Source: Pseudonocardia sp. SCN 73-27 (GTDB taxonomy: Bacteria > Actinomycetota > Actinomycetes > Mycobacteriales > Pseudonocardiaceae). From it: a DNA stretch of 34,778 nt. The translations under genes were made by a program, and so were the position numbers. The notes beneath the pieces were generated by a model. The model was not told the origin of the DNA, did no database searches, and worked only from the letters and a program-made list of their open reading frames with translations. The DNA lies in the NCBI GenBank assembly GCA_001725415.1, contig MEGH01000044.1, positions 1 through 34,778 on the forward strand, given 5' to 3'. Below are positions 9,183 through 33,046 of the stretch, piece after piece. The stretch's first letter is position 1. Each line of letters begins with the position of its first letter.

Positions 9183-9186
9183 CGGT

Positions 9187-13957: not shown

Positions 13958-14004
13958 TTGACCCGACTCCCGGACGCTCACTATGGTCTACCGGAAACGT
14001 TTAT
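13958..14004 (+). promoter_or_regulatory. Promoter with LacI-type operator before the aldehyde dehydrogenase
   Basis: TTGACC (13958-13963), an 18-base spacer and TATGGT (13982-13987) form a plausible sigma-70 promoter. Directly downstream, at the expected transcription start, is GGAAACGTTTAT (13993-14004) with a perfect AAACGTTT centre, a typical LacI-family operator core. The same element recurs in front of the other catabolic units in this window. Confidence 0.6.
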
Positions 14005-14055
14005 ATCGCCCGACGGCCTTCCGCCTGCGGCGAACCCGCGAATCGAGGAGCCAGG

Positions 14056-16890: not shown

Positions 16891-16931
16891 TTGACCGCAT
16901 GGTGCGACAGCTGCAAACTAGAAACGACTCA
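16891..16931 (+). promoter_or_regulatory. Promoter with LacI-type operator before the cupin operon
   Basis: TTGACC at 16891-16896 is a good -35 box; the -10 is weak (AAACTA at 16915-16920 with 18-base spacing). TAGAAACGACTC at 16919-16930 overlaps its end and is identical over 12 bases to a site before nadV. The rest of the 304-base divergent region (16730-17033) shows no gene. Confidence 0.5.
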
Positions 16932-17033: not shown

Positions 17034-17501
17034 GTGACGGACTACGACCCCGCCGCCCCCAACGCGCGTCGGTTCCCGCGGGTGATCGTGCCCGACGAGA
17101 TCGACAAGATGCCCGTGCTGACGTTCAACACCGGCATCACGACGAACATCTTCCTGTCGCGCGAGCGCGACGACGCCCGCTTCTTCCGGCACGGCTACTG
17201 CTACGGCGAGCCCGACCACCTGCCCTACCAGTGGGAGCAGCGCGACTTCGACGAGACGCACTACGTCCTCGACGGACACATCCACCTCGTGGTCGAGGAC
17301 GCAGCGGGCCGCACGATCGTGCTGGAGGCGGGCGTCGGGGAGCACATCTACCTGCCCGCGGGCTACACCTACCGGCTCGAGTGCAGCGGGGTGTCCTACA
17401 AGTTCTTCTGGACGTCCGGGCCCTCACCGAAGGTCGGCGTCGCGGACGCACCCGACTACAGCCGCGAGCTCACGGCGCTGCGCACCTCCGAGGGGAGCTG
17501 A
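17034..17501 (+). CDS. Cupin-domain protein of unknown function
   Basis: This 155-residue single-domain cupin opens with a short N-terminal segment (NARRFPRVIVPDEIDKMPVL). The barrel shows FDETHYVLDGHIHLVVEDAAG and VGEHIYLPAGYTYRLECSGV, which provide His/Glu positions capable of holding a metal. The second motif resembles EutQ-like and other small catabolic cupins. The GTG at 17034 follows GAGAGGAG. It heads an operon with only two bases before the next gene. Possible roles include a ring hydrolase, isomerase or small-molecule sensor; nothing in the sequence decides between them. Confidence 0.78.
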   Translation: MTDYDPAAPNARRFPRVIVPDEIDKMPVLTFNTGITTNIFLSRERDDARFFRHGYCYGEPDHLPYQWEQRDFDETHYVLDGHIHLVVEDAAGRTIVLEAGVGEHIYLPAGYTYRLECSGVSYKFFWTSGPSPKVGVADAPDYSRELTALRTSEGS

Positions 17502-17503
17502 TC

Positions 17504-18019
17504 ATGGCCGTGACCGCCAGCACCTGGCAGCCGCTGCGGGGCGACAAGCGTTGGGCCTACCTGTCGCGCGCGAAAACCATCCGGATCGCCACGGCGAACC
17601 AGGACGGCAGCATCTACCTGTCGCCGCTGTGGCTCGTCGTCCACGAGCAGCGGATCTTCATCCCGATCGACGCCGCGTCACGGCACGGCGTGAACGTCAC
17701 CGCCGGACGTCCGCTGTCGGCCCTGGTCGACCAGGGCGAGGAGTACGCGACGGTCAGCGGGGTCCGGATCACCGGGACGATGCAGCCGATCGACGACGGC
17801 GCGCTCGCGAAGACGTTGGCGCAGCTGGTGTTCGACAAGTACTTCCACGTCGGCCACCCCTACGCCGAGCAGTACCTGGAGTTCGGTGAGGTCGCAGGCC
17901 GGACGTACTACGAACTGGTACCCGACCGGATGATCGGCTGGGACATGCGGGAGATCAACGTCATCGCGATGCCGGAGGCCCGGGTGCTCCCGGACCACGT
18001 CGGGGACCGGCTCCTGTGA
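17504..18019 (+). CDS. PPOX-family split-barrel oxidoreductase
   Basis: This 171-residue protein has the pyridoxamine-phosphate-oxidase fold, with AKTIRIATANQDGSIYLSPL, WLVVHEQRIFIPID, RPLSALVDQGEEYATVSGVR and a C-terminal WDMREINVIAMPE. Such proteins bind FMN, or in actinomycetes often F420, and reduce small organic substrates or protect flavins. An F420-linked dehydrogenase is encoded in the next operon of the same regulon, so F420 is worth considering. The ATG at 17504 follows GAGGGGAGC, and the stop overlaps the next gene's GTG (GTGA). It is part of the cupin-to-ribokinase operon. Confidence 0.78.
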   Translation: MAVTASTWQPLRGDKRWAYLSRAKTIRIATANQDGSIYLSPLWLVVHEQRIFIPIDAASRHGVNVTAGRPLSALVDQGEEYATVSGVRITGTMQPIDDGALAKTLAQLVFDKYFHVGHPYAEQYLEFGEVAGRTYYELVPDRMIGWDMREINVIAMPEARVLPDHVGDRLL

Positions 18020-18780
18020 GCGCCGCGTCCGGCCCGCTGCGGGTGCTGTTCGCGGGCGAGTCGTGGATCAAGCACACGATCCACATGAAGGGCTTCGACC
18101 AGTTCCACAACACCGAGTACGAGGAGGGCGCGGGCGACTTCCTCGCAGCGCTCGACCGTGAGGGCTTCCGGGTCACCTACGTCCGCGGGCACGAGATCTC
18201 GGCCCGGTTCCCGCGCTCGGCCGTCGAGCTCGACGAGTTCGACGTCGTCGTCCTCTCCGACATCGGGTCCAACTCGTTCCTCCTGCCCGACGAGACGTTC
18301 CTGCGCTCGGAGCGCAGCGCGAACCGGCTCGCCGTGCTCCGCGACTGGACGCGTGCGGGCGGCGGACTCGTGATGATCGGCGGATACATGTCGTTCACGG
18401 GGATCGAGGGCAAGGCGCGGTTCGGGATGACGCCGCTGGCCGACGTCCTGCCGGTGCGGATGCTCGACCACGACGACCGGATCGAGGAGTCCGCGGGCGT
18501 CAAGGCCGACTTCGACGAGCCCGCGCACCCGGTCCTGGGAGGGACCCCCGCGGAGTGGCCGCCGCTGCTCGGGTACAACCGTCTGATCGCGAAGCCGGAG
18601 GCGACGACCGTGGCACGTGCAGGGGACGATCCCCTGTTGGTCGTCGGGCCGGCGGGCGAGGGCCGTTCCGTCGCGTTCGCCTCGGACCTGGCGCCGCACT
18701 GGGCGCCACCGGAGTTCGTCGGATGGCCGCACTACCAGAGACTGTGGGCGTCCATCCTCGGCTGGGCGGCCGGCGCCTGA
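18016..18780 (+). CDS. GATase1-like (DUF1355-type) protein
   Basis: This 254-residue protein of the class I glutamine-amidotransferase-like fold is recognised by LRVLFAGESWIKHTIHMKGF, FDVVVLSDIGSNSFLLPD and GGGLVMIGGYMSFTGIEGKA. The segment where a true amidotransferase has its nucleophilic Cys reads GGYMSF, so classical glutaminase chemistry is unlikely. Relatives are found in sugar and trehalose-type catabolic clusters without known reactions. The GTG start overlaps the preceding stop by four bases, so translation is coupled, and the LacI gene follows after 11 bases. Its conservation with cupin and PPOX genes would suggest a three-protein step in the pathway. Confidence 0.72.
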   Translation: MSAASGPLRVLFAGESWIKHTIHMKGFDQFHNTEYEEGAGDFLAALDREGFRVTYVRGHEISARFPRSAVELDEFDVVVLSDIGSNSFLLPDETFLRSERSANRLAVLRDWTRAGGGLVMIGGYMSFTGIEGKARFGMTPLADVLPVRMLDHDDRIEESAGVKADFDEPAHPVLGGTPAEWPPLLGYNRLIAKPEATTVARAGDDPLLVVGPAGEGRSVAFASDLAPHWAPPEFVGWPHYQRLWASILGWAAGA

Positions 18781-18791
18781 GGAGGTCTGCC

Positions 18792-19817
18792 GTGGTGTCA
18801 CGCCGTCGGCCCACGATGAAGGACGTCGCGGAGCACGCGAACGTCTCGATCAGCACGGTCAGCTATGTACTGAACGACAGCGGGCCCGTCGCCCCCGAGC
18901 GTCGCAACCGGGTGCTCGACGCGATCCGCCTGCTCGACTACTCCCCCAACGAGTCCGCACGCAGCCTCAAGCGGCGCTCGGCGTCGACCATCGCGATGGT
19001 CGTGCCCGACCTGACCAACCAGTTCTTCGCGATGGTCGCCGAGGGGGTGCACCGCGCCGCGTCGGCCGTCGACGTGCTCGTCGTCCTCGTGTTGCCCGAT
19101 GCCACGGAGCTGCCCGAGGAGAGCCAGGCGAAGCTGCTGCGCAGCCAGCGTGTCGACGGCGTGATCTACCTGTCGGGCACGGGGTCCATGCCCGCGGCCA
19201 TCTACGACCTTGCCCGGTCCGGCCCTGTCGTCCTGGTCGACGAGCAGATCCCGGGTCGCGACCTGCCCGCCGTGGTGTGCGACTCGCGCCGCGGCGGCCG
19301 TGAGGTCGCGGCGCACGTGCTCGGCCAGGACCACCACCGGCTCGCCGTGATCGGCGGCCCGCCTGCGCTGTGGACGGCGCAGCAACGTCTCGCCGGCTAC
19401 CGCGAGGCGTTCGCGGGCGCGGGGATCGACCCCGACTCGGTCCCCGTCCTCGCCGGCGACTACCGGCAGGAGTCCGGGTACGCCGCAGCCGCGGAGATCC
19501 TCGCGTGGCCGGAGTCGGAGCGGCCGACGGCGCTGTTGTGCGCCAACGACCTCATGGCCATCGGCGCGATGCAGTGCCTGCGCGACAACGGGCTCGACCT
19601 TCCCGGCGACATGAGCGTCGTCGGCTTCGACGACCAGCCGATCTCCAGCATGCTGACACCGGCGCTGACCAGCGTGCGCCAGCCGGCGTACGACATGGGC
19701 CACCGGGCCGCGCGGGTGCTGTTCGACCTGCTCGAGGGCAGGGAGCCCGACACCACCGGCCCGTTGCCCGCCGAGGTTCGCATCCGCGACAGCGTCGGCC
19801 CACCGAAGGAGCGGTGA
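18792..19817 (+). CDS. LacI-family transcriptional repressor
   Basis: This 341-residue regulator has an N-terminal LacI helix-turn-helix (TMKDVAEHANVSISTVSYVL) and hinge (SPNESARSLKRR), followed by a periplasmic-binding-protein-like sensor domain (STIAMVVPDLTNQFFAMVAE, VVGFDDQPISSMLTPALTSV). The GTG at 18792 follows GGAGGT; a second GTG three bases on is equally possible. It sits directly before ribokinase, with which it overlaps by one base, so an RbsR-like response to a sugar or ribosyl compound is plausible. Six operator-like sequences with a LacI-type core stand before the aldehyde dehydrogenase, the CoA-transferase, its own operon and nadV, making it the likely local regulator. Confidence 0.9.
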   Translation: MVSRRRPTMKDVAEHANVSISTVSYVLNDSGPVAPERRNRVLDAIRLLDYSPNESARSLKRRSASTIAMVVPDLTNQFFAMVAEGVHRAASAVDVLVVLVLPDATELPEESQAKLLRSQRVDGVIYLSGTGSMPAAIYDLARSGPVVLVDEQIPGRDLPAVVCDSRRGGREVAAHVLGQDHHRLAVIGGPPALWTAQQRLAGYREAFAGAGIDPDSVPVLAGDYRQESGYAAAAEILAWPESERPTALLCANDLMAIGAMQCLRDNGLDLPGDMSVVGFDDQPISSMLTPALTSVRQPAYDMGHRAARVLFDLLEGREPDTTGPLPAEVRIRDSVGPPKER

Positions 19818-20773
19818 TGACTGCCGACGACATCGTGGTCGTCGGCGCGGTCAACGTCGACATGGTGGTGACCGCGCCGCAGCTGCCCGGCCCCGGCGAG
19901 ACCGTCGTGGGCCCCGGGATGCGCCGGCACGGCGGCGGCAAGGGCGCGAACGCGGCCGTCGCCGCGGCACGGGTGGGCGGACGCGTGCACTACGTCGGGG
20001 CGGTCGGCGACGACGACCTCGGCGCGACGGCCCTGAGAGAGCTCGCGGCCGACGGCGTCCGCACCGGCGACGTGTCCGTGGTCGCACAGGAGGCCACCGG
20101 AGTCGCCCTGATCGTCGTCGACGAGGCCGGCGAGAACCAGATCGCGGTCGGTGCGGGGGCCAACGGACGGCTCGGCGCCGACGCGGTGGAGGCGGCCCTG
20201 CGGCGTCGACTGCCCACCGCCGGATGTGTGCTCGTCAGCACCGAGGTACCCGGCGACGCGGTCGCCACGGCGGTGCGTGCCGCGACCGCGGCCCGGGTGC
20301 GGTGCGTACTCAACCCCGCGCCGGTGATCCCGGCTGTCGTCGAGCTGCTCGACCTCGGCCCGGTGCTCACGCCGAACACCGGCGAACTGTTCGCACTGGC
20401 GGCCGCTGCGGGCGGCGGTACGCCGCCCTCGCGCGCCTCGCCGAGCTGCAAGGAGATCCTGACGTGCGCACAGGCCCTCGTCGGCAGGACTCGCGCGCCC
20501 GTGCTCGTGACACTCGGTGGCGACGGCGTACTCGTCGTCGGCAGTGACGGGACGTCGCGGCACGTCGCTCCGCTGCCGGTCGAGGTCCGTGACACGACCG
20601 GAGCCGGCGACACCTTCAACGGTGTCCTCGCCGCGGAGCTGGCCGTGGGCCGAGGGCTCGACGCGGCAGCACGGGCCGCAACCGTGGCCGCGGGGCTGTC
20701 CGTGAGGGCCATCGGCGCCAGGAACGGAATGCCGACGGCCGCCGCACTCGCTGCAGCGCTCGTGGACGCGTAG
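19817..20773 (+). CDS. rbsK: Ribokinase (PfkB-family carbohydrate kinase)
   Basis: This 318-residue sugar kinase carries the PfkB signatures: GGGKGANAAVAAARVGG near the N-terminus and DTTGAGDTFNGVLAAELAVG near the C-terminus, with NPAPVIP and TPNTGEL between them as in ribokinases. It would phosphorylate ribose to ribose-5-phosphate with ATP. The ATG overlaps the repressor's stop by one base. No ribose transporter is encoded nearby. The ribose may therefore come from inside the cell, for example from the nucleoside hydrolase at 28836, and its product is the direct substrate of the PRPP synthetase at 23424. Confidence 0.87.
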   Translation: MTADDIVVVGAVNVDMVVTAPQLPGPGETVVGPGMRRHGGGKGANAAVAAARVGGRVHYVGAVGDDDLGATALRELAADGVRTGDVSVVAQEATGVALIVVDEAGENQIAVGAGANGRLGADAVEAALRRRLPTAGCVLVSTEVPGDAVATAVRAATAARVRCVLNPAPVIPAVVELLDLGPVLTPNTGELFALAAAAGGGTPPSRASPSCKEILTCAQALVGRTRAPVLVTLGGDGVLVVGSDGTSRHVAPLPVEVRDTTGAGDTFNGVLAAELAVGRGLDAAARAATVAAGLSVRAIGARNGMPTAAALAAALVDA

Positions 20774-20818
20774 CGAACACCGGACAGCGGGAAGGAGGCG
20801 ACAACAGGTGGTCTTGTT

Positions 20819-20830
20819 AGAAACGGTTCT
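20819..20830 (+). promoter_or_regulatory. LacI-type operator upstream of nadV (site 1)
   Basis: AGAAACGGTTCT is a 12-base near-palindrome with five of six base pairs matching around a CG centre. It lies in the 444-base gap between ribokinase and nadV (20774-21217). I see no gene in that gap, only three operator-like sites and one good promoter. Confidence 0.55.
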
Positions 20831-21013
20831 GCCCAGCCTGCACTCCCGACGACGCAGCGCCGACCCCTGTCATCGACGCGACCCCGCACCGGTTTGGGCA
20901 TCGTCGCCCCGCATCGCACTGATCTGCAGGTTCCTACCGCGTACGAGGGCGGCGCCGCCGAGCGTCGCACCGGTGCTCGGCGCACGCTCCCCGAAATTCA
21001 CGAAGGAGGTGAG

Positions 21014-21041
21014 TTGACGGTCACACTAGAAACGTTAACAT
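21014..21041 (+). promoter_or_regulatory. Promoter with overlapping LacI-type operator for nadV (site 2)
   Basis: TTGACG (21014-21019), a 16-base spacer and TAACAT (21036-21041) make the best promoter in the gap. AGAAACGTTAAC (21028-21039) covers the spacer and -10 box, a position suited to repression. Transcription from here gives a leader of about 170 bases. Confidence 0.6.
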
Positions 21042-21186
21042 CGTGTTGCTGTACGCCTCGATGCCTGGTGGTCCGTCAGACGAATACGCAAGGCTGCTCG
21101 TCCGCGTAGAACCCCGGTTCCACGCAGCCAGGTCCACACCTGTTCCATCCACGCCGTGCCATCCCGGATCGGTACGGCAGGTCGGT

Positions 21187-21198
21187 AGAAACGACTCT
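21187..21198 (+). promoter_or_regulatory. LacI-type operator in the nadV leader (site 3)
   Basis: AGAAACGACTCT lies 19 bases before the nadV start, just upstream of GGAAGG. With the preceding T it is identical over 12 bases to the site before the cupin operon. A downstream site of this kind could act as roadblock or loop partner. Confidence 0.5.
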
Positions 21199-21217
21199 CG
21201 CGGAAGGTGAAGTGCCG

Positions 21218-22678
21218 ATGGGCTACCTCGACAACCTGATCATCAACACCGACAACTACAAGCACTGCCACTACCCGCTGTACCCGCCCGGCACCGAGTA
21301 CGTCTCGAGTTACATCGAGTCCCGGGGCGGCGAATGGCCGGTCACGCAGTTCGTCGGTCTGCAGGCGTACCTGCGCGAGTACCTCATGCGGCCCATCACC
21401 CTCGAGGACATCGACGAGGCCGAGTTCGTCGTCCGCGAGCAGGGCATGCACTTCAACCGGGACAACTGGCTGGGCATCCTCAACGACTACGACGGGTTCC
21501 TGCCCGTCGAGATCGAGGCCGTGCCCGAGGGCACCGTGCTCCCGGCACGCAACGTGCTGGTCCAGGTCATCAACACCGACCCGAAGTACTTCTGGGCCAC
21601 CAGCTTCTTCGAGACCGCCCTGCTGCGTGCGGTCTGGTACCCGACGACGATCGGCACCGTCAGCTGGCTGTCGAAGATGGTGATCAAGGAGGCGCTGGCC
21701 CGCACGTCCGACAACCCGCACCTCATCCGCAACACGCTGCACGACTACGGCGCCCGTGGCGTCAGCTCGCAGCAGTCGGCCGCGCTGGGCGGTCTCGCGC
21801 ACCTCGTCAACTTCGACCAGTCCGACACCGTCCCCGGCATCCTCGCCGCGAAGCATTTCTACAACGCGGGCAAGGTCTCCAACTCGGGCCCGAACTCCGA
21901 GCACGCCGGGTTCTGTGCGTGGGGCCAGGAGCACGAGGTCGACGCCCTGCGCAACATGCTCGACGTCTACGCCCCCGAGGGCTGCGCCCTGCTGCTGTCG
22001 GACACCTACGACCACGAGAACTGCGTCAAGAAGATCATCGGCGGCGAGCTGCGCGAGCAGATCCGCAACTTCCCCGGCCTCGTCGGGGTCCGGCCCGACT
22101 CCGGCGACATCGTCCAGGTCACCGCCGACACCACCGAGTGGCTGATGGACGCCTTCGGCTACGAGGTGAACTCGAAGGGCTTCAAGATCCTGCCGCCGTT
22201 CATCCGCGTGGTGCAGGGCGACGGCGTCAACTTCTACAGCCTCCCGCAGGTCTACATGGAGCTGGAGCGACGTGGCCTCGCCGCCGACAACGCCGTGTTC
22301 GGCATGGGCGGTGGCCTGCTGCAGCACTGGAACCGCGACACCATGAACTTCGGGCAGAAGGCCTCCGCGGTGTGCGTGGACGGGGAGTGGCGCGACATCG
22401 CCAAGAACCCGACCGGCGCGGCGTTCAAGGTCTCGAAGAAGGGCCGGCTCGCACTCAAGTACGAGAACGGCACCTACACGACGGTTCCGAAGGGCTCGAT
22501 CCCCGAGTCCGAGAACGTTCTCAAGCCGGTGTTCCGCAACGGCAAGCTGCTCAAGAAGTGGGACTTCACCGAGCTCATCGCCAACGCCGAGCGCGAGGTC
22601 CCGGAGTCGTACTACATCGACCACATCGGCCAGATGCGGACGGTGCAGAACGAGACCGCGGTCACGGCACCGGCCTGA
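21218..22678 (+). CDS. nadV: Nicotinamide phosphoribosyltransferase-like enzyme (NadV family)
   Basis: This 486-residue enzyme of the NAMPT family joins nicotinamide and PRPP to give NMN. Family residues are kept (human numbering from memory): Tyr14 (Y18), Arg180 (R196), Asp203 (D219), His229 (H247), and Arg292/Asp294 in GVRPDSGD (R311/D313). The base pocket differs: HDYGARG replaces HDFGYRG, and GPNSEHAGF replaces VPAAEHSTI, so a base other than nicotinamide is possible. The ATG at 21218 follows GGAAGG; a GTG two codons earlier is less likely. Three LacI-type operators precede it. It heads an operon with HAD phosphatase and PRPP synthetase, the latter supplying its co-substrate. Confidence 0.88.
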   Translation: MGYLDNLIINTDNYKHCHYPLYPPGTEYVSSYIESRGGEWPVTQFVGLQAYLREYLMRPITLEDIDEAEFVVREQGMHFNRDNWLGILNDYDGFLPVEIEAVPEGTVLPARNVLVQVINTDPKYFWATSFFETALLRAVWYPTTIGTVSWLSKMVIKEALARTSDNPHLIRNTLHDYGARGVSSQQSAALGGLAHLVNFDQSDTVPGILAAKHFYNAGKVSNSGPNSEHAGFCAWGQEHEVDALRNMLDVYAPEGCALLLSDTYDHENCVKKIIGGELREQIRNFPGLVGVRPDSGDIVQVTADTTEWLMDAFGYEVNSKGFKILPPFIRVVQGDGVNFYSLPQVYMELERRGLAADNAVFGMGGGLLQHWNRDTMNFGQKASAVCVDGEWRDIAKNPTGAAFKVSKKGRLALKYENGTYTTVPKGSIPESENVLKPVFRNGKLLKKWDFTELIANAEREVPESYYIDHIGQMRTVQNETAVTAPA

Positions 22679-22717
22679 GGCCGGCACCGACCGAGGATCC
22701 TCGAGGCTCCACCCTGC

Positions 22718-22761
22718 GACGCCGTCGCGGCACGAACCCCCTCCCGTGCCGCGACGGCGTC
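22718..22761 (+). terminator. Perfect 17-bp hairpin after nadV
   Basis: GACGCCGTCGCGGCACG (22718-22734) is perfectly complementary to CGTGCCGCGACGGCGTC (22745-22761), with a 10-base loop AACCCCCTCC. It sits in the 110-base gap before the HAD gene. It could be a partial terminator that makes nadV the most abundant message, or an mRNA-stability element. Confidence 0.7.
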
Positions 22762-22788
22762 CGTCCGACCACCGGGAGACCGCCGCCG

Positions 22789-23427
22789 ATGACCCACCTG
22801 CACGTCTTCGACATGGACGGAACCCTCCTACGCGGCGCAGGCTCCGTGGAGCTCGCCCGGCACCTGGGCACGTTCGAGGCCGCCGACCGGATCGAGCGGG
22901 CCTGGGGCCGCGGCGAGATCACCGACGTCCAGTTCTGGGAGCAGATGCTGCCGCTCTGGGCCGACGTCACCGACGAGGAGATCGACGCGGCGTTCGCCGC
23001 GTCGGCGTGGATCGACGGCGTGCGGGAGGTGTTCGCCGACATCACCGCGCGGGGCGAGCACGTCGCGGTGATCTCGCAGTCACCGCACTTCTTCGTCCGC
23101 CGGCTCGAGGCATGGGGTGCCCACCGCACGTTCGGCTCCGACGTCGTGCCACGTCGGCAGGCCCGCAAGGAGCACCTGCTCACGCTGCAGCACAAGGTCG
23201 ACATCACGCTGCGGCTGCTCGACGAGCTCGGCCTCGACGAGACCGACGCCGTCGCCTACGGCGACTCGACGTCGGACACCCTGCTGTTCGCGCACCTCAC
23301 CCACACCGTCGGGGTCAACTGCTCGGAGGTGCTGCGCGCCAGCGCAGCCGTCTGCTTCGACGGCGACGACATCCGCGGTGCCTACGCCCTGGGCCGCCGG
23401 CTGCTGGATCGGGAGCGTGTGACATGA
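22789..23427 (+). CDS. HAD-superfamily (SerB-like) phosphatase
   Basis: This 212-residue haloacid-dehalogenase-type phosphatase has motif I FDMDGTLL (nucleophile Asp8, acid/base Asp10), motif II VISQSP, a Lys in ARKEHLL and motif IV YGDSTSDTLLF. The helical cap between motifs I and II is typical of HAD-IB enzymes such as phosphoserine phosphatase, but a serine-specific role is not supported by context. Between a phosphoribosyltransferase and a PRPP synthetase, dephosphorylation of a ribonucleotide to a riboside is a reasonable guess. The start follows GGGAG. The stop overlaps the PRPP synthetase start (ATGA). Confidence 0.82.
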   Translation: MTHLHVFDMDGTLLRGAGSVELARHLGTFEAADRIERAWGRGEITDVQFWEQMLPLWADVTDEEIDAAFAASAWIDGVREVFADITARGEHVAVISQSPHFFVRRLEAWGAHRTFGSDVVPRRQARKEHLLTLQHKVDITLRLLDELGLDETDAVAYGDSTSDTLLFAHLTHTVGVNCSEVLRASAAVCFDGDDIRGAYALGRRLLDRERVT

Positions 23428-24440
23428 GCACCGTCATCGGTGCCCCGGAAGGCACGTGCATGCACCTCGGCTACCGCAAGCGGCTCATGCTCTTCTCCGG
23501 TCGCGCCAACCCCGCGCTGGCCGACGCCATCGGCCACGAGCTCGGCGTCGGACTCGGCTCGGTGACGCTCAAGACCTTCTCCAACGACGAGGTGTACTGC
23601 CGCTTCACCGAATCCATCCGTGGCGCCGACGTCTTCATCGTGCAGCCGATGTGCGGGAACCCGGCGACGGGCGTCAACACCAACGACGCCCTGCTCGAAC
23701 TGCTCGTCATGATCGATGCCGCGGTCGGCGCCAGCGCCCACCGCGTCATCGCCGTCACCCCCTGGTACGGCTACTCGCGCCAGGACAAGAAGTCCGAGGC
23801 GCGTGAGCCGATCTCGGCGCGGCTGGTCGCCCGGATGCTCGAGTCGGCCGGAGTGGACCGGGTGCTGACGATGGACCTGCACGCCGGCCAGCTGCAAGGC
23901 TTCTTCTCCCGCCCGGTCGACCACATGACGTCGCTGATGATGCTGGCCGACCATTTCGCCGGCCTGGACGACGACCTCGTCGTGGTGGCGCCGGACGCCG
24001 GCCGGGTCAAGCTCAACAAGCAGTTCGCGACCCGCATGGGTGCCGGCCTCGCGATCCTCGACAAGGAACGCCCCGCCCAGCAGGTCGCCGAGATCGGGCA
24101 CGTCATCGGCGACGTCCGAGGGAAGACCGCGATCATCGTCGACGACATCATCGACACCGCCGGCACCCTGCGGGCCGCAGGCGAGGCCGTCGTCGCGGCC
24201 GGTGCCCGACGGGTGTTCGCCGCCGCGACCCACGCCGTGCTGTCGGGCCGGGCGAACGAGAACCTCGCCGCCGCACCGTTCGAACGGATCGTCGTCACCG
24301 ACACGATCCCGTTGCGCCCCGGCGCACCCGACAACGTCCACGTCGTGTCCTGCGCGCCGCTGCTCGCCGCGACGATCCGCCGCATCTTCACCGACGAGTC
24401 GGTCAGCGAGGTCTTCGGCGGCAAGAACCACCTCTTCTGA
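23424..24440 (+). CDS. prs: Ribose-phosphate pyrophosphokinase (PRPP synthetase)
   Basis: This 338-residue class I-type PRPP synthetase makes PRPP from ribose-5-phosphate and ATP. Recognisable are FSNDEVYCRFTESIRGADVF, the catalytic-flap region PWYGYSRQDKK, MDLHAGQLQGFF, and the PRPP-binding loop IIVDDIIDTAGTLRAAG. Its length is slightly above the usual 310-330, with about ten extra residues at the start. The ATG overlaps the phosphatase stop, so the two are coupled. A housekeeping prs is normally elsewhere near glmU, so this is probably a dedicated second copy feeding the NadV-like enzyme; that assumes the rest of the genome, which is not visible. Confidence 0.88.
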   Translation: MSTVIGAPEGTCMHLGYRKRLMLFSGRANPALADAIGHELGVGLGSVTLKTFSNDEVYCRFTESIRGADVFIVQPMCGNPATGVNTNDALLELLVMIDAAVGASAHRVIAVTPWYGYSRQDKKSEAREPISARLVARMLESAGVDRVLTMDLHAGQLQGFFSRPVDHMTSLMMLADHFAGLDDDLVVVAPDAGRVKLNKQFATRMGAGLAILDKERPAQQVAEIGHVIGDVRGKTAIIVDDIIDTAGTLRAAGEAVVAAGARRVFAAATHAVLSGRANENLAAAPFERIVVTDTIPLRPGAPDNVHVVSCAPLLAATIRRIFTDESVSEVFGGKNHLF

Positions 24441-24485
24441 TTCCGCAGCTCTGCGTCCGTTCACCCCTCTGGAAGGACCCGCACC

Positions 24486-25529
24486 ATGCCCTCGTCCGAT
24501 CCGGTCGCCACCGGCGACGTCCGAATCGGCTACAAGGCCTCCGCCGAGCAGTTCGGTCCGCGCGAGCTGATCGAGTTCTCGGTCGAGGCCGAGGACCGCG
24601 GCCTCGACATCGTCGCGGTGTCCGACCACTTCCAACCGTGGCGACACCGCGGCGGTCACGCCCCCAACGCCCTGACCTGGCTCGGCGCCGCCGGGGCCTC
24701 GACCTCGCGTGCGGTGCTGGCCACGAGCGTCCTCACCCCGACGCTGCGCTACCACCCGTCGATCGTCGCGCAGTCCTTCGGCACCCTGGCGGTGCTCAAC
24801 CCGGGTCGCGTGGTTCTCGGGATCGGGTCGGGCGAGGCGATGAACGAGACCCCGGCCACCGGCGTGGAGTTCCCCGGGCCGAAGGAGCGCCGGATGCGGA
24901 TGGCCGAGGCGATCACCCTGATGCGCCGGCTGTGGACCGAGGACCGTGTCGACTTCGAGGGCACCTGGTACCGCACCGAGAAGGCGACGATCTACGACCG
25001 GCCCGAACGACCCGTCCCCATCTACGTGGCCGCCTCGGGCCCGCTCGCGGCCAAGCTCGCCGGCAGGGTCGGCGACGGGTTCATCTGCACCTCGGGCAAG
25101 GACCCCGAGCTGTACCGGACCCTGCTGGCCAACGTCGCCGACGGCGCCACCCAGGCCGGCCGCTCGCACGGCGACCTGCGTCGGATGATCGAGATCAAGG
25201 TGTCCTACGACCGTGACCTCGACACCGCGTACGACAACTGCCGCTGGTGGGCGGCGCTCGCGCTGAGCTCGGAGCAGAAGACCGGCGTCGAGGACGCCGT
25301 CGAGATGGAACGGCTCGCCGACGCGAACGCCGACAAGGCCCACTCCCGGTTCATCGTGTCCGACGACCCGGAGGACGTCGTCGAGCGCATCGGGACCTAC
25401 CTCGACCTCGGCTTCACCGACGTGGTGCTGCACGGACCTGGCGGGGACCAGCACCGGTTCCTCGAACAGTTCGCCGTCGACGTGCTGCCCGGGCTGCGCG
25501 AACGGGCGAAGATCGGGACGACCTCGTGA
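24486..25529 (+). CDS. FGD-like F420-dependent sugar-phosphate dehydrogenase
   Basis: This 347-residue luciferase-like protein is close to mycobacterial F420-dependent glucose-6-phosphate dehydrogenase along its whole length. It carries VSDHFQPWRHRGGHAP (His48 and Trp52, FGD1 His40/Trp44), GIGSGEAMNE (Glu117, FGD1 Glu109), and the three phosphate-binding positions Lys205 (TSGK), Lys265 (SEQK) and Arg288 (SRF), matching FGD1 Lys198, Lys259 and Arg283; numbering of FGD1 is from memory. It should therefore use F420 and a phosphorylated sugar or sugar-like substrate. In this operon the substrate might be a ribose-phosphate derivative rather than glucose-6-phosphate. The ATG follows TGGAAGGA; the stop overlaps the next gene (GTGA). 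Confidence 0.85.
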   Translation: MPSSDPVATGDVRIGYKASAEQFGPRELIEFSVEAEDRGLDIVAVSDHFQPWRHRGGHAPNALTWLGAAGASTSRAVLATSVLTPTLRYHPSIVAQSFGTLAVLNPGRVVLGIGSGEAMNETPATGVEFPGPKERRMRMAEAITLMRRLWTEDRVDFEGTWYRTEKATIYDRPERPVPIYVAASGPLAAKLAGRVGDGFICTSGKDPELYRTLLANVADGATQAGRSHGDLRRMIEIKVSYDRDLDTAYDNCRWWAALALSSEQKTGVEDAVEMERLADANADKAHSRFIVSDDPEDVVERIGTYLDLGFTDVVLHGPGGDQHRFLEQFAVDVLPGLRERAKIGTTS

Positions 25530-26992
25530 CCGGCCCCGTCGCCCTGCGCAGCCTCGTCGGTGGGAAATGGGTCGACCCGGTCGGTCCCGATCTCGTCGAC
25601 GTCGACCCCGCCCGGCCGGGCACCGTCGTGGCCCGTGGCCGGCTCGCGGGTCGGCCCGAGATCGACGACGCCGTACGCGCCGCCGTCGATGCCGCCGCGC
25701 CGTGGGCCGCGACGCCCTTCCCGGTGCGTGGGGAGATCCTCGCCCGGGCCGCGGCGGTCCTCGACGCCCACTCCGAGACGTGGGGCACCGAGCTGTGCCG
25801 GGAGGAGGGCAAGACCCGCGCGGAGGGCATCGGTGAGGTGCGCCGGGCCGCGGAGATCCTGCGGTTCCACGGATCGGCCGGCCTGCGCCCGGTCGGCGAG
25901 GTCTACGCCTCCCCCCGCCCGGACGAACAGATCCAGGTCGTGCACCGCCCGGTCGGCCCCGTCGCCGTCGTGACGCCGTTCAACTTCCCCATCGCCATCC
26001 CCGCCTGGAAGATCGCGCCGGCGCTGGCCTACGGCAACCCTGTCGTCTGGAAGCCGGCGAGCGCGGTGCCGCTGCTCGCGATGCGGCTCGCGGAGGCCCT
26101 CGTCGAGGGCGGGCTACCGCCCGGGGTGCTGTCGCTGCTGCTGATCGGCAACACCGACGCGCCCGCGCTGCTGGAGCATCCCGGAATCCGGCGGGTCACG
26201 TTCACCGGGTCGACGGCGGTCGGGCGGCGGATCATCGCCCGCTGCGGCGAGCTCGCCCGGCCGGTGCAGACCGAGATGGGCGGCAAGAACGCCGCCGCCG
26301 TTCTCGCCGACGCCGACCTCGACCTGGCCGTCGACCAGATCGTCGCCGGGGCGTTCCGCTCGACCGGGCAGAAGTGCACTGCCACCTCACGGGTCGCTGT
26401 CACGGATTCTGTCGCCGAGGAGTTCCTCGACCGGCTGCTCCGGCGGGTCGCGGCGATCCGCGTCGGCGACCCGGGCCTCGACGGCACCGACATGGGTCCG
26501 CTCGTCTCCACGAGTGCGCGCGACGACGTGCACGCAGCCGTCGAGGCCGCGACCGGTCGCGCCGGGGTACGGGTGCACTGCGGCGGCGACCGCTACACCG
26601 ACGCGCGTGCCGACGGCGCGTTCCTGCCCCCGACGGTCGTCGAGCTCGACGGCGACGACGCCCTCTGGCGCGACGAGCTGTTCGGCCCGGTGCTCGCCGT
26701 CCGGCGGGCCGCCACGGACCGCGAGGCGCTGCAGCTGGTGAACGACAGCGTGTTCGGCCTCTCCGCGGCCGTGTTCACCAACGGTCTCGACGCCGTCGCC
26801 ACCGCGATCGCGACGCTCGACGTCGGCGTCCTGCACGTCAACTCCGAGACTGCGGGCGCGGACCCGCACGTCCCCTTCGGCGGGGCCAAGGACAGCGGGT
26901 TCGGGCCGAAGGAGCAGGGCGCCGCCGCCCGCGAGTTCTTCACGACGACGACCACCGTCTACCTCCGGCCCGCCCGGCCGCTCGCCCCGTGA
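25526..26992 (+). CDS. Aldehyde (semialdehyde) dehydrogenase
   Basis: This 488-residue ALDH-superfamily enzyme has the catalytic Cys in STGQKCTATSR and the Glu in TEMGGKNAA, with VVTPFNFPIAIPAWKIAPAL and TFTGSTAVGRR in the cofactor domain and the FGGAKDSGFG C-terminal block. It resembles 2-oxoglutarate-semialdehyde and succinate/glutarate-semialdehyde dehydrogenases. The GTG overlaps the FGD-like gene's stop by four bases, so both are made together, which suggests that the F420 step and the aldehyde oxidation are linked. A glutaryl-CoA dehydrogenase gene follows 25 bases later, favouring a C5 semialdehyde substrate by context. Confidence 0.86.
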   Translation: MTGPVALRSLVGGKWVDPVGPDLVDVDPARPGTVVARGRLAGRPEIDDAVRAAVDAAAPWAATPFPVRGEILARAAAVLDAHSETWGTELCREEGKTRAEGIGEVRRAAEILRFHGSAGLRPVGEVYASPRPDEQIQVVHRPVGPVAVVTPFNFPIAIPAWKIAPALAYGNPVVWKPASAVPLLAMRLAEALVEGGLPPGVLSLLLIGNTDAPALLEHPGIRRVTFTGSTAVGRRIIARCGELARPVQTEMGGKNAAAVLADADLDLAVDQIVAGAFRSTGQKCTATSRVAVTDSVAEEFLDRLLRRVAAIRVGDPGLDGTDMGPLVSTSARDDVHAAVEAATGRAGVRVHCGGDRYTDARADGAFLPPTVVELDGDDALWRDELFGPVLAVRRAATDREALQLVNDSVFGLSAAVFTNGLDAVATAIATLDVGVLHVNSETAGADPHVPFGGAKDSGFGPKEQGAAAREFFTTTTTVYLRPARPLAP

Positions 26993-27017
26993 CCGCCACC
27001 CGTACTGGAGGCCATCG

Positions 27018-28187
27018 ATGCCCGTCATGACCGACCCGCTGGACCTGCTGTCGGTGGCCTCGCTGCTCACCGACGAGGAGCGCGACATCCAGCGCACGGT
27101 CCGCGCCTTCCTCGACGACCACGCCCGCCCGCACGTCGCCAGCTGGTTCGACGCCGCGACGTTCCCCAGGGAGCTCGTTCCCGAACTGGGCAAACTCGGC
27201 CTGCTCGGCATGCACCTCGAGGGCTACGGCTGCGCCGGCACCGACGCCGTCGGCTACGGGCTGGCATGTCTCGAGCTGGAGGCCGTGGACTCAGGCCTAC
27301 GCAGCTTCGTCTCCGTGCAGGGCTCCCTGTCGATGTACTCGATCCACCGCTGGGGCTCGGAGGAACAGAAGCAGGAGTGGCTGCCCCGGCTCGCCGCGGG
27401 CGAGGCGATCGGCTGCTTCGGGCTGACCGAGCCCGACGCCGGGTCCGATCCCGGGTCGATGCGCACCCACGCGGTGCGCGACGGGGGCGACTGGGTGCTC
27501 AACGGGTCCAAGATGTGGATCACCAATGGCGGTCTCGCCGACGTCGCGACCGTCTGGGCACGCACCGACGAGGGGGTCCGCGGCTTCCTCGTTCCCCGCG
27601 GCACCCCCGGGTTCTCCACGACCGACGTCGGCCGCAAGCTGTCCCTGCGTGCGTCGGTGACCTCCGCGCTGAGCCTCGACGACGTCCGGCTCCCTGCATC
27701 GGCGATGCTGCCGGAGGCACGCGGACTGCGCGGCCCGCTGTCCTGCCTGAACGAGGCCCGGTTCGGCATCCTCTTCGGTGCTGTCGGCGCCGCCCGCGAC
27801 TGTCTCGCCACAGCCCTCGGCTACGCCGACACCCGGGTCCAGTTCGGACGACCGATCAGCGCGTTCCAGCTGACCCAGAAGAAGCTCGCCGACATGGCCG
27901 TCGCGCTCAACGCGGCGATGCTGCTGGCCCTGCACCTGGGTCGGCTCAAGGACCGCCACCAGCTGCGTCCCGAGCAGGTCAGCGTCGGCAAGCTCAACAA
28001 CGTGCGCGAGGCGATCGCGATCGCCCACGAGTGCCGCACGATCCTGGGCGGCAACGGGATCTCCGGGGAGTACCCGCCGCTGCGGCACGCGGCGAACCTG
28101 GAGTCCGTGCGCACCTACGAGGGCACCGACGAGGTGCACACCCTCGTCATCGGCGAGACCCTGACCGGCCGGGCCGCGTACCGGTGA
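27018..28187 (+). CDS. gcdH: Glutaryl-CoA dehydrogenase
   Basis: This 389-residue acyl-CoA dehydrogenase belongs to the glutaryl-CoA branch: oxidative decarboxylation of glutaryl-CoA to crotonyl-CoA using FAD. Diagnostic stretches are GYGCAGTDAVGYGLACLELE, VDSGLRSFVSVQGSL and TYEGTDEVHTL. Glu368 is the catalytic base. Arg95 and Ser99 match the residues that hold the glutaryl carboxylate in human GCDH (Arg94/Ser98, from memory), which separates it from ordinary acyl-CoA dehydrogenases. The ATG at 27018 follows CTGGAGG. Its place after a semialdehyde dehydrogenase, and in the same regulon as a class III CoA-transferase, supports a complete route from glutarate semialdehyde to crotonyl-CoA. Confidence 0.88.
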   Translation: MPVMTDPLDLLSVASLLTDEERDIQRTVRAFLDDHARPHVASWFDAATFPRELVPELGKLGLLGMHLEGYGCAGTDAVGYGLACLELEAVDSGLRSFVSVQGSLSMYSIHRWGSEEQKQEWLPRLAAGEAIGCFGLTEPDAGSDPGSMRTHAVRDGGDWVLNGSKMWITNGGLADVATVWARTDEGVRGFLVPRGTPGFSTTDVGRKLSLRASVTSALSLDDVRLPASAMLPEARGLRGPLSCLNEARFGILFGAVGAARDCLATALGYADTRVQFGRPISAFQLTQKKLADMAVALNAAMLLALHLGRLKDRHQLRPEQVSVGKLNNVREAIAIAHECRTILGGNGISGEYPPLRHAANLESVRTYEGTDEVHTLVIGETLTGRAAYR

Positions 28188-28212
28188 CCGACCCCGAGCG
28201 GAGGAGACCGCG

Positions 28213-28803
28213 ATGACCGAGATCGGGAGCCTGTGCGTGTTCTGCGGCTCCAACACCGGGCGCGACCCGGCGTTCCTCGCCGGCGCCCAGCGCCTCGGCA
28301 CGTTGCTGGGCAGCCAGGGCATCACCGTCGTGTACGGCGGCGCGAGCGTCGGCACGATGGGGGCGCTGGCCGATGCCACGCTGGCCGCAGGTGGGCAGGT
28401 GCACGGCGTCATCCCCCGTCAGCAGCTCGGCGACGAGATCGCCCACGAGGGCCTGACGCAACTGCACGTCGTCGAGTCGATGCACGAGCGCAAGGCGCTC
28501 ATGGGTGAGCTCGCCGACGGGTTCGTCGCCCTGCCCGGCGGGCTCGGGACGCTGGAGGAGTTCGCCGAGGTGCTGACGTGGTCGCAGCTCGGCCTGCACG
28601 CCAAGCCGACAGGCCTGCTCGACACCGCCGGCTACTACGACCACTTCCTGCGGTTCCTCGACCACGCCGTCGACGAGGGTTTCGTGCGCCCCGCCGACCG
28701 CGGGATCGTGCTGTCGGGGACGGATCCGGCGACACTGCTGACACGGATGCGGGCGTGGGAGCCGGCGCAGGACCAGCGCTGGGAACCCGTCGAGAGCCCG
28801 TGA
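28213..28803 (+). CDS. LOG-family nucleoside-5'-monophosphate phosphoribohydrolase
   Basis: This 196-residue Rossmann-fold protein of the LOG/TIGR00730 family has the signature PGGLGTLEEFAEVLTWSQLG and VYGGASVGTMGALADATL. These enzymes cleave nucleoside 5'-monophosphates (classically cytokinin riboside phosphates or AMP) to free base and ribose-5-phosphate. The start follows GGAGG and lies 25 bases after the glutaryl-CoA dehydrogenase. In this operon it would return ribose-5-phosphate to the PRPP synthetase, provided that its nucleotide substrate is the product of the NadV-like enzyme. Confidence 0.85.
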   Translation: MTEIGSLCVFCGSNTGRDPAFLAGAQRLGTLLGSQGITVVYGGASVGTMGALADATLAAGGQVHGVIPRQQLGDEIAHEGLTQLHVVESMHERKALMGELADGFVALPGGLGTLEEFAEVLTWSQLGLHAKPTGLLDTAGYYDHFLRFLDHAVDEGFVRPADRGIVLSGTDPATLLTRMRAWEPAQDQRWEPVESP

Positions 28804-28835
28804 CCGGACCGGACACACCACGAGGAGGCCGCCCG

Positions 28836-29771
28836 TTGCCCGCCCCGATGATCATCGACACCGACCCCGGGGTGGACGATGCGTTCGCGATCGTCCTCGC
28901 CCTCTGCAGCCCCGAGGTCGACGTCCGTGCCGTCGTCGCGACGTACGGCAACGTCGGCCGGGAACAGACGTTCGTGAACCTGCGACGCATCCTCGCGCTC
29001 GCCGGGCGCACCGACGTCCCGGCCGCCGCGGGGTCGATCCGCCCACTCGTGCACCCGCAGGCCGAGACGGCGCCCGACTGGCACGGCGTCGACGGCCTCG
29101 GGTTGCGCGGGGACGAACTGCCCGCGCCCGGTCCCGGCGATCCGCGCCAGGGCGTCGAGCTGATGGCCGACGTGCTGCGCGCGGCCGACGAGCCAGTCAC
29201 GCTGGTGTGTCTGGGGCCCTTCACCGACGCAGCGCTGCTGCTCGCGACCAGGCCGGACCTCGTGCCACGGCTGGGTCGGATCGTCGCCATGGGCGGCTCG
29301 TTCGGTGCCGGCAACACCCGGGGCGCGGGCGAGTTCAACGTCTACGCCGACCCGGAGGCCGCCCACCGCGTCCTGACCCAGCACGACGTGCCCGTCACGC
29401 TCGTCCCGCTCGACCTGACGATGGCCGCCCGGGTCACCGGGGCATGGCTCGACGACCTCGCCCTCGCCGGGCCGCGCACCGAGTTGCTGGTGCGCACCGC
29501 GCGCCTGTATCGCGACACCTTCATCCAGCGGCACGGCAACGACTCGGTCGCGCTGCACGACACCCTCGCGGTGCTGGAGGCCGTGGTGCCCGGCAGCCTG
29601 CGCACCACGCCGTTCCCGCTCGCCGTCGCCTGTTCGCACGGCGCCGAACGCGGCGTGACGGTGATCGACCGCCGCGTCGAGGCGGGCGGCCCACCGGTGG
29701 CGGTCGCGTTGGACGCCGACGTCGCAGCTGCGACCGTCGAGGTGGGTCGCCGGATCCGCACCCTGGGCTGA
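28836..29771 (+). CDS. Inosine-uridine-preferring-type nucleoside hydrolase
   Basis: This 311-residue nucleoside N-ribohydrolase carries the calcium-binding signature IIDTDPGVDDAFAIV at the N-terminus, ATYGNVG, MGGSFGAGNTRGAGEFNVYA in the middle and the catalytic-site HDTLAVL near the C-terminus. It hydrolyses ribonucleosides to free base and ribose. I chose the TTG at 28836 because CGAGGAGG lies correctly before it; a GTG overlapping the LOG stop (28800) and an ATG at 28848 are alternatives, the last leaving almost no residue before the metal site. Ribose released here can be used by the ribokinase of the LacI operon. Confidence 0.84.
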   Translation: MPAPMIIDTDPGVDDAFAIVLALCSPEVDVRAVVATYGNVGREQTFVNLRRILALAGRTDVPAAAGSIRPLVHPQAETAPDWHGVDGLGLRGDELPAPGPGDPRQGVELMADVLRAADEPVTLVCLGPFTDAALLLATRPDLVPRLGRIVAMGGSFGAGNTRGAGEFNVYADPEAAHRVLTQHDVPVTLVPLDLTMAARVTGAWLDDLALAGPRTELLVRTARLYRDTFIQRHGNDSVALHDTLAVLEAVVPGSLRTTPFPLAVACSHGAERGVTVIDRRVEAGGPPVAVALDADVAAATVEVGRRIRTLG

Positions 29772-29789: not shown

Positions 29790-30015
29790 GTTCATCAGGG
29801 CGAGCGCCGGCTGATCCGCGCCCGCGCCGCCGACGAGCTGGGCAACCTCGTCCACGCGACGACCGTACGGAACTTCGACCCCGACATGGCGACCGCGGCC
29901 GACCTCGTGATCGCCGAGGTCGACGAGATCGTGACCACACACCTGTTCGTCGACGCCCTCGTCCTCGGCGCGGCAGCCCGAAGATCGTCGACGCACGACC
30001 GCGCCGTTCACCGTG
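29790..30015 (+). pseudogene. Decayed 3-oxoacid CoA-transferase subunit A fragment
   Basis: Between the nucleoside hydrolase and pcaD an open frame without a start reads RRLIRARAADELGNLVHATT, then RNFDPDMATAADLVIAE and VDEIV. This matches the distal part of PcaI/AtoD-type subunits (GNLVY, ARNFNPLMATAA, VIAEVDEIV). Near 29970 the similarity jumps to another frame, where RRTTAPFTVA resembles the subunit's C-terminal tail. The N-terminal CoA-transferase portion and subunit B are missing, so I read this as a truncated and frameshifted remnant. A 3-oxoadipate CoA-transferase would be the expected next step after PcaD, so the fragment is probably a relic of the catechol pathway. Confidence 0.68.
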
Positions 30016-30796
30016 GCGCTTCCGGCCGTCTGCGCCCGACCCCGGCGCCGACCTGGTCGAGCAGCAGTGCCGTCACGGCGTCGGCGGACTCGAGGTTGGG
30101 CAGGTGCGCACCGGGCAGCACCCGCAAGCGCGCCCCCGGGATGCGGGTGGCGATGTCGGCGACGTGGTCGGGTGGCGTGGCGGGGTCGTCGGCTCCGGCG
30201 ACGACGGTCGTCGGCACGGTCACCGCGGCGAGTGCGTCGCGCATGTCGAAGGTGCCGACGGCCTCGCAGCAGGCGGCGTAGCCCTCGGCGGAGGTCGCGC
30301 GGAGCATGTCGAGCAGCGCGGCGACGCGTCCCGGACGGTTGCGCGCGAGATCGTCGGTGTACCAGACGCCGGCGCGGGAACCGACCATCGTCGACGTCCC
30401 GCCGGCGCGCACGGCCTCGGCACGGGCGTGCCACGACGGCGGGTCCGGGAACCGGCACGACGTCGCGACGGCGATCAGCGACAGGATGCGTCCGCTGTGG
30501 ACGGCGAGGTGTTGGCCGATCGCCCCACCGAGGGAGACGCCCGCGTAATGGAACCGGTCGACGCCCAGGTCGTCGAGCGCGGCGAGGACGCCGTCGGCGA
30601 GGTCGGCGACGGTGAGCGGGCCGCCGGGGTCGGGTGAGCCGCCGTGGCCGGGCAGGTCGAACCGCACGGTCCTGACCTGCGCCGCGAGCACGGGCAGCTG
30701 GTCGTCCCACACTCCGGTGTCGGTGCCGAGCGACGGGCCGAGGACCAGCACACCGTCGGCGGGGCCGTCGACGACGGTGTGCAGCCGCAGCGTCAT
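30008..30796 (-). CDS. pcaD: 3-oxoadipate enol-lactonase
   Basis: This 262-residue alpha/beta hydrolase has the nucleophile elbow GVSLGG, oxyanion region LGPSLGTDTGVWDDQLP, an acid-containing loop VVAGADDPATPP and the catalytic His in LPGAHLPNLE, all as in PcaD enol-lactonases. It would hydrolyse 3-oxoadipate enol-lactone to 3-oxoadipate after CatC. The ATG overlaps the stop of the FAD synthetase-like gene (ATGA). It is the last gene of the reverse-strand catechol operon. The following step, a 3-oxoadipate CoA-transferase, is represented only by a decayed fragment. Confidence 0.85.
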   Translation of the reverse strand: MTLRLHTVVDGPADGVLVLGPSLGTDTGVWDDQLPVLAAQVRTVRFDLPGHGGSPDPGGPLTVADLADGVLAALDDLGVDRFHYAGVSLGGAIGQHLAVHSGRILSLIAVATSCRFPDPPSWHARAEAVRAGGTSTMVGSRAGVWYTDDLARNRPGRVAALLDMLRATSAEGYAACCEAVGTFDMRDALAAVTVPTTVVAGADDPATPPDHVADIATRIPGARLRVLPGAHLPNLESADAVTALLLDQVGAGVGRRRPEAPR

Positions 30797-31850: not shown

Positions 31851-31855
31851 TCTCG

Positions 31856-32980: not shown

Positions 32981-32999
32981 TTCGGAGCCTCTCGGGGGT

Positions 33000-33031: not shown

Positions 33032-33046
33032 GGATGAACGGGGAGG

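Follow-up and report, generated by a model that had tools for sequence, protein, structure and literature searches.

A published account of pyridine, an industrial pollutant, gives two routes for its breakdown, one through glutaric dialdehyde and one through succinate semialdehyde, and names no phosphoribosyl or F420 step in the former. Here we analyse a 34,778-nucleotide stretch of Pseudonocardia sp. SCN 73-27 (the window, 72% GC; positions 1–34778 of contig MEGH01000044.1, from a genome of 6.95 Mb and 99 contigs), in which a gene cluster around a NadV-like phosphoribosyltransferase probably encodes the breakdown of pyridine or a closely similar compound. Unlike the route as described there, this pathway would activate the ring through a phosphoribosyl handle and reduce it with F420H2. 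We know of no genes for the glutaric dialdehyde route, and to our knowledge the gene-level basis of its first attack on the ring, made without hydroxylation, is unsettled. The aldehyde dehydrogenases, CoA-transferase and glutaryl-CoA dehydrogenase (GCDH) of the window would consume its glutaric dialdehyde, glutarate and glutaryl-CoA.

The pyr cluster that Casaite reported in 2020 from Arthrobacter sp. 68b is said to hold an LLM monooxygenase, a flavin reductase, an aldehyde dehydrogenase, an amidohydrolase and a succinate semialdehyde dehydrogenase (SSADH). These parts are also seen in Rhodococcus plasmids of the type B defined below; the window, by comparison, has aldehyde dehydrogenases and F420/glutarate enzymes, and none of the genes assigned by family searches matches the LLM monooxygenase of that group, the amidohydrolase or SSADH. 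F420 systems that reduce picrate or nitroaromatics pair a source of F420H2 with an F420H2-dependent reductase acting on an electron-poor ring. We propose the same pairing here, except that phosphoribosylation would make the ring electron-poor and the reductase would be of the PPOX family. In mammals, imidazoleacetate is an N-heterocycle phosphoribosylated on a catabolic route (EC 6.3.4.8) whose riboside is excreted, whereas the present scheme would open the ring and reuse the handle. The NadV/NAMPT enzymes of nicotinamide salvage share fold family, full length and equivalents of D219, R311 and H247 with the window NadV, which differs in base pocket and gene context. A literature search with limited subscription coverage found nothing joining phosphoribosylation or F420 to pyridine breakdown, and we do not claim that such a link is unpublished.

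A nadV core joined to one of two modules

Families were assigned with Pfam and NCBIfam profiles and PDB sequence searches, and the gene families, their conservation, the company of F420 genes, a shared operator and an altered NadV pocket can all be read directly from the sequences compared. All families that a first-pass annotation had named between 17034 and 29771 (plus strand, as are all features below unless stated) were recovered, the cupin as a weak match only. The families were in place, but the set proved larger than that annotation had it: an aldehyde dehydrogenase (aldehyde dehydrogenase 1; 475 residues, 14056–15483) and a CaiB-type, glutarate-type CoA-transferase (15608–16729, minus strand) belong to it and recur in related loci, the former with its own operator-like site.

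Among genomes of the same bacterial family, nadV of this kind is rare and patchy, occurring in 15 of 297 (this one included); the copies of the window and of Pseudonocardia sulfidoxydans NBRC 16205 share 98% identity. A scan of 84,980 GTDB species genomes gave 65 nadV loci, two with a partial nadV, so the gene set is conserved well outside this genome. The loci span many Pseudonocardia, other Actinomycetota, metagenome-assembled genomes (MAGs) of Solirubrobacterales, five Gammaproteobacteria MAGs, the cyanobacterium Elainella (a 64% nadV copy) and a further four that we take to be Alphaproteobacteria (a Rhodobacteraceae MAG, Pseudodonghicola, Methyloligella and an Acetobacteraceae MAG). The cluster appears to move among very different bacteria. 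Pseudonocardia dioxanivorans CB1190 carries two near-identical nadV copies about 22 kb apart (L034 and L052) and, within this region, a fragment of the gene, which points to recent duplication or rearrangement.

The core comprises nadV (21218–22678), had (HAD-IB phosphatase, 22789–23427), gat1 (GATase1-like protein, 18016–18780), lacI (18816–19817), rbsK (PfkB ribokinase-like kinase, 19817–20773) and prs (phosphoribosyl pyrophosphate (PRPP) synthetase, 23424–24440), and is joined to one module, A or B, never both at one locus. Type A (29/65 loci, and the kind to which the window belongs) carries a cupin and a PPOX gene, sometimes with FGD, F420-biosynthesis genes, a glutarate CoA-transferase and GCDH. 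Type B (15/65) has an LLM monooxygenase and often an amidohydrolase. The other 21 loci lack either module at the identity thresholds used (50% for cupin and PPOX, 50% for LLM, contig ends not considered); several of them sit on short or truncated contigs. Core genes are widespread in both types: nadV in 28/29 A and 15/15 B loci, gat1 in 28/29 and 15/15, lacI in 28/29 and 13/15, had in 26/29 and 14/15, and, within range, prs in 22/29 and 14/15 and rbsK in 21/29 and 14/15. Nucleoside hydrolase (17/29 A, 7/15 B) and LOG (6/29 A, 2/15 B) are sparser. LOG, nucleoside hydrolase, FGD and GCDH, which the first-pass annotation proposed to look for together with NadV and PRPP synthetase, are accessory rather than universal.

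Candidate genes for glutarate breakdown follow type A. Aldehyde dehydrogenase 1 (at least 52% identity) is found in 15/29 A and 0/15 B loci and the CoA-transferase in 11/29 and 0/15; GCDH or the CoA-transferase is present in 11/29 against 0/15 (Fisher p 0.008, optimistic since related loci are taken as independent). F420-biosynthesis or FGD genes show the same division, with 12/29 A against 0/15 B (p 0.003, optimistic for the same reason), and sampled F420 genes were verified on curated models for the CofG and CofH domains of FbiC, CofC, CofE and CofD. CofH scored over its cut-off in 7/7 proteobacterial genomes with type A, and also in that of L057, whose contig ends before PPOX; neither of the two type-B alphaproteobacterial genomes searched gave a match (0/2). 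For L078 and L089 the sole CofH over cut-off sits inside the nadV cluster, while Methyloligella has one there and one elsewhere. F420 genes appear to accompany type A into proteobacteria, which supports F420H2 reduction of an N-heterocycle.

Twelve plasmid records carry nadV at 60% identity or more, and the six examined are split between type-A-like (H2, H8 and H11) and type B (H1, H4 and H7). The Rhodococcus ZPP, DK176 and JS3073 plasmids bear type-A-like clusters with FbiC, CofC, CofE and 6-phosphogluconolactonase, the last being what an FGD acting on glucose 6-phosphate would require; an FGD-like gene lies near nadV on JS3073 only. Two type-B Rhodococcus plasmids combine LLM monooxygenase, flavin reductase, aldehyde dehydrogenase, SSADH, formate dehydrogenase and amidohydrolase. 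Rhodococcus PD04, which uses pyridine as sole carbon and nitrogen source, has a plasmid with the same core and a type-B module. By gene content, types A and B would match the glutaric dialdehyde and succinate semialdehyde routes, respectively.

The operator link made in the first-pass annotation is real. TTAGAAACGWT-like sites (two mismatches) occur five times in the window against 0.77 expected, a number reached in 0 of 100 shuffles. These are GGAAACGTTTAT (13993–14004; pattern match on the minus strand at 13996–14006) upstream of aldehyde dehydrogenase 1, AGAAACGACTCA (16920–16931) upstream of the cupin operon, AGAAACGGTTCT (20819–20830), AGAAACGTTAAC (21028–21039) and AGAAACGACTCT (21187–21198), the last about 30 bases 5′ of nadV, a position comparable in many loci. 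Across loci, the 12-base near-palindrome AGAAACGNTTCT (two mismatches) is present in 57 of 71 nadV upstream regions of 400 bases, in both cluster types, at a density of 3.45 sites per kb, about 12-fold above the 0.28 per kb of those loci as a whole. A genome-wide regulon was rejected, as operator counts in the Pseudonocardia genome (149/144) equal those of a reversed-pattern control (137/137), with no genome-wide enrichment.

Candidate enzymes of the reductive module

The PPOX/FDOR-like protein (17504–18019) matches Pfam PNPOx_N over its cut-off (40.7 bits), and 26 of 28 PPOX-like homologues match TIGR03618 at E values up to 0.001 (best 3.7e-13). We regard it as a candidate F420H2-dependent reductase of the ribotide ring, and a likelier one than the FGD-like protein (24486–25529). 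The latter was rejected for that role, being close to FGD1 (PDB 5lxe, 393 bits; TIGR03554, 417.6 bits, just under its cut-off at 420) and keeping the sugar-phosphate site: equivalents of Lys198, Lys259, Arg283, His40, Trp44 and Glu109 are visible by eye in the alignment to 5lxe, in what we take to be FGD numbering and with presumed sugar-phosphate ligand roles. It should make F420H2 from glucose 6-phosphate. The F420-dependent dehydrogenase of the first-pass annotation is accordingly of the FGD-like LLM family, but its predicted role shifts from ring reductase to F420H2 supplier. FbiC is encoded elsewhere in the genome, which also has FGD-like paralogues at 54% and 53% identity, the 53% copy with two internal stops.

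Beside PPOX, and kept together with it across loci, lies a cupin-like protein (17034–17501; 155 residues) matching Pfam Cupin_3 under its cut-off (E 0.001), with a putative role in ring hydration or opening. The GATase1-like protein (PF07090, 317.8 bits) is a putative ribosyl-handling enzyme. In two examples from elsewhere, Rhizobium and Pantoea plasmids (L129 and L130), PF07090 genes have as neighbours a LacI regulator, a ribokinase/PfkB kinase, a phosphotriesterase-related protein and an ABC transporter, an arrangement that fits such a role and resembles an uncharacterised ribosyl-type catabolic module.

Three enzymes would lead from glutaric dialdehyde to glutaryl-CoA. By NCBIfam match, aldehyde dehydrogenase 1 is a candidate glutaraldehyde or glutarate semialdehyde dehydrogenase, and aldehyde dehydrogenase 2 (25526–26992; Pfam and NCBIfam) a candidate (semi)aldehyde dehydrogenase. 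The best of seven NCBIfam matches of the CoA-transferase is succinate–glutarate CoA-transferase (NF052585, 344.5 bits, under its cut-off of 750), and its PDB neighbours include formyl-CoA transferase and succinate–hydroxymethylglutarate CoA-transferase; we treat it as a candidate succinyl-CoA:glutarate CoA-transferase. The earlier naming of the acyl-CoA enzyme (27018–28187) as GCDH is borne out by PDB 3swo (602.9 bits). All six best PDB rows are labelled glutaryl-CoA dehydrogenase, one as 'putative', although against NF045552, the NCBIfam model of glutaryl-CoA dehydrogenase Acd, the protein scores far too low (194.8 bits, cut-off 470). The arginine of the acyl site and the catalytic YEGT glutamate were seen by eye in the PDB alignment, and nothing else in the genome exceeds 39% identity to this protein over its length.

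The ribosyl-processing enzymes are assigned with differing firmness. The HAD-IB phosphatase exceeds its cut-off (TIGR01488, 66.8 bits against 45), as does the LOG-type nucleoside 5′-monophosphate phosphoribohydrolase (28213–28803; TIGR00730, 180.7 against 96.35), which also matches PDB 5zbj (219.9 bits) and, within that alignment, has a PGGxGTxxE sequence that we take to be the LOG motif; the narrower NF058542 gives 130 bits against a cut-off of 300. RihA/RihC-type matches of the nucleoside hydrolase (28836–29771) fall under their cut-offs, as do the ribokinase match of the PfkB kinase (TIGR02152, 245 bits against 299.65) and the best matches of the LacI-family regulator, CytR and RbsR. The PRPP synthetase is the second in the genome, the two being 48% identical to each other.

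The NadV base pocket and the identity of the base

Both NAMPT domains are present over the full length of the window NadV (PF18127, NAMPT_N, 76.7 bits; PF04095, 126.3 bits; PRK09198, 511 bits, above its cut-off of 405). We aligned 64 cluster NadVs of at least 68% identity with seven references (three phage, four plasmid) in human NAMPT numbering, lowering the cupin and PPOX threshold to 45% and adding plasmid rows and the window for this alignment and the tree; for loci L029 and later, one NadV set is restricted to matches that cover over 380 residues of the query. Residue roles are those that we take NAMPT to have. Tyr193 and Asn244 occur in 64/64 cluster NadVs, and Gly242 and Gly309 in 61/64 each, against 0/7 references for each of the four. 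The references instead have Phe193, Ile/Val242, Ala244 and Val/Ile309. All four positions are altered together in 58/64 cluster NadVs and in 0/7 references.

At no position of the alignment are the residues of the 29 type-A NadV rows wholly distinct from those of the 18 type-B rows. In the NadV tree (a quick search, with 19 of 72 inner branches weak and two phage references omitted) the module changes between A and B at least eight times. The shared pocket and these changes point to one kind of NadV repeatedly joined to either module, as expected if NadV makes a shared intermediate. It is to us an even call whether pyridine ribotide is that branch point, feeding two mobile ring-opening modules, a reductive one that would use F420H2 and end in glutarate and an oxidative one that would use a flavin monooxygenase and end in succinate and formate, while ribose 5-phosphate is recycled.

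Handle logic might also apply to a different base—a substituted pyridine (amide, hydroxy, methyl or amino) or another azine—which would place the cluster in degraders of pyridine-type compounds. The D219 and R311 equivalents, kept in 64/64 cluster NadVs, favour this, as do the two to four nadV matches in several genomes of the genus. So do distant homologues (56–64%) with still other pockets, some of which neighbour a CinA-type amidase and a gene resembling OMPdecase; they suggest that bases may vary within the family. We nevertheless hold a base other than pyridine to be unlikely. An unsubstituted C5N ring is indicated by the type-B content of two Rhodococcus plasmids (SSADH, formate dehydrogenase, amidohydrolase) together with the C5 glutarate enzymes of the window; PD04 lives on pyridine as sole carbon and nitrogen source; and A and B NadVs are without a separating residue.

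Eight more distant NadV rows (below 68%) carry other pockets. At L053, L081, L082, L083 and L085, a distant nadV (56–64%) lies near a CinA-type nicotinamide mononucleotide (NMN) amidase and/or an OMPdecase-like gene (one of each Pfam-confirmed). Amidase and OMPdecase-like protein could possibly convert NMN to nicotinate ribotide and then to pyridine ribotide, an entry from nicotinamide. The nadV pockets of the Rhodococcus ZPP (L096) and DK176 (L097) plasmids have Ala191, Glu219, His244 and Met245, and next to these nadV genes are two pairs of cupin and PPOX genes as well as genes for F420 biosynthesis; these plasmids perhaps use the same strategy for a different base.

Proposed pathway and adjoining genes

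From these families we infer the base, each ring reaction, the order of steps and the inducer as follows. PRPP synthetase would supply PRPP, from which the NadV-like enzyme would form an N-phosphoribosyl pyridinium by placing phosphoribose onto the ring nitrogen. Such N-substituted pyridinium rings accept hydride well, and the neutral pyridine ring does so poorly. In type A, the PPOX-like protein would reduce the cationic ring to a 1,4-dihydropyridine ribotide with F420H2 that FGD would draw from glucose 6-phosphate; in type B, reduced flavin and oxygen would attack the pyridinium ring. Water addition by the cupin and/or the GATase1-like protein would open the reduced ring to glutaric dialdehyde and phosphoribosylamine, and the latter would, by general chemistry, decay to ribose 5-phosphate and ammonia. 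The two aldehyde dehydrogenases would yield glutarate, the CoA-transferase glutaryl-CoA and GCDH crotonyl-CoA, while ribose 5-phosphate would return to PRPP. The HAD phosphatase, LOG, nucleoside hydrolase and PfkB kinase may recover dephosphorylated ribosyl units, and the riboside may induce through LacI. Families for the closed ribosyl cycle of the first-pass annotation are all present, but hydrolysis of the reduced ring would free ribose 5-phosphate directly, so that the cycle through phosphatase and N-glycosidase may run beside the main route or serve to produce the inducer. With enzyme roles corrected, the main line of that annotation (phosphoribosylation, F420H2 reduction, ring opening, glutarate) survived the tests run, among them the conservation in other genomes whose lack would have counted as a refutation, and is partly supported by the company of F420 genes, GCDH, the glutarate CoA-transferase relative, the NadV pocket and the core on the PD04 plasmid.

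If correct, a nucleotide-forming handle would be a new strategy for aromatic activation, beside oxygenation and CoA-thioester formation in aerobic degradation; an NAD-salvage enzyme family would have been recruited to catabolism; and F420 in scattered proteobacteria would have a reason. The genes suggest a concrete first step for both pyridine routes, and an altered NadV with a PPOX or LLM gene offers a genetic marker for finding pyridine degraders.

Several observations weigh against this pathway. All 64 cluster NadVs retain residues equivalent to D219, R311, Y18 and H247, of which D219 presumably binds the nicotinamide carboxamide; unsubstituted pyridine is therefore not an obvious substrate. 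TIGR03618 gives the PPOX-like protein of the window 34 bits, under its cut-off of 79. Among the 29 A loci, FGD is found in nine, GCDH in nine, LOG in six and the aldehyde dehydrogenase pair in six, counts that are uncorrected for the cutting of loci at contig ends and 10 kb. SSADH and formate dehydrogenase, sought with R. pyridinivorans queries, turned up beside 0/15 type-B GTDB loci (SSADH in L061 and the plasmids only), and flavin reductase is in 3/15. CofH matched in five of nine type-B-like genomes, three of them (actinobacteria) over the cut-off and one below it at 279 bits. AGAAACGNTTCT is absent from 14 of 71 nadV upstream regions, and we found no documented glutarate-route pyridine degrader carrying type A. 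Lastly, PyrA/PyrE of Arthrobacter sp. 68b (Casaite 2020) reportedly attack pyridine directly, with no need of a handle.

Such direct attack is the basis of a second alternative, in which NadV and the HAD phosphatase yield only pyridine riboside as an inducer for LacI and the ribosyl enzymes clear the signal. The regulator is closest to CytR and RbsR, whose effectors we take to be a nucleoside or ribose, and the phosphatase is present in 26/29 A and 14/15 B loci. We consider this improbable: a second PRPP synthetase (22/29 A, 14/15 B) and the kinase suggest flux over a trace signal, and neutral pyridine, by general chemistry, accepts hydride poorly where an N-substituted pyridinium accepts it well. 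Less probable still, and rejected, is ordinary NAD salvage, with NadV making NMN from nicotinamide and lying in a catabolic island by chance: the NAMPT domains are complete (PRK09198, 511 against 405 bits), but the pocket differs jointly at 193, 242, 244 and 309 (58/64 against 0/7 references), the 15 cluster genes include no NMN adenylyltransferase where three of seven reference NadVs have such or a Nudix gene alongside (an NMN adenylyltransferase/Nudix gene in two cases, a NUDIX gene in the third), and the catabolic neighbours recur across many loci.

The remainder of the window lies on either side of the proposed pyridine cluster. At 30008–34740 (minus strand), 3-oxoadipate enol-lactonase, a RibF-like protein, muconolactone isomerase and catechol 1,2-dioxygenase, with a cycloisomerase-like gene recognized by eye, would make up a catechol ortho pathway that includes a flavin gene of its own; an HpaB-type monooxygenase in this region is interrupted by the contig end. 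These genes were rejected as part of the pathway, being on the opposite strand, without an operator site and without a strong match near nadV elsewhere. On the other side, 278–13102 encodes a LuxR-type response regulator, a CBS protein, a nitroreductase-like protein, a universal stress protein and a GAF histidine kinase, with a DoxX-like membrane protein recognized by eye, in what we take to resemble a DosR/DevS-type hypoxia island.

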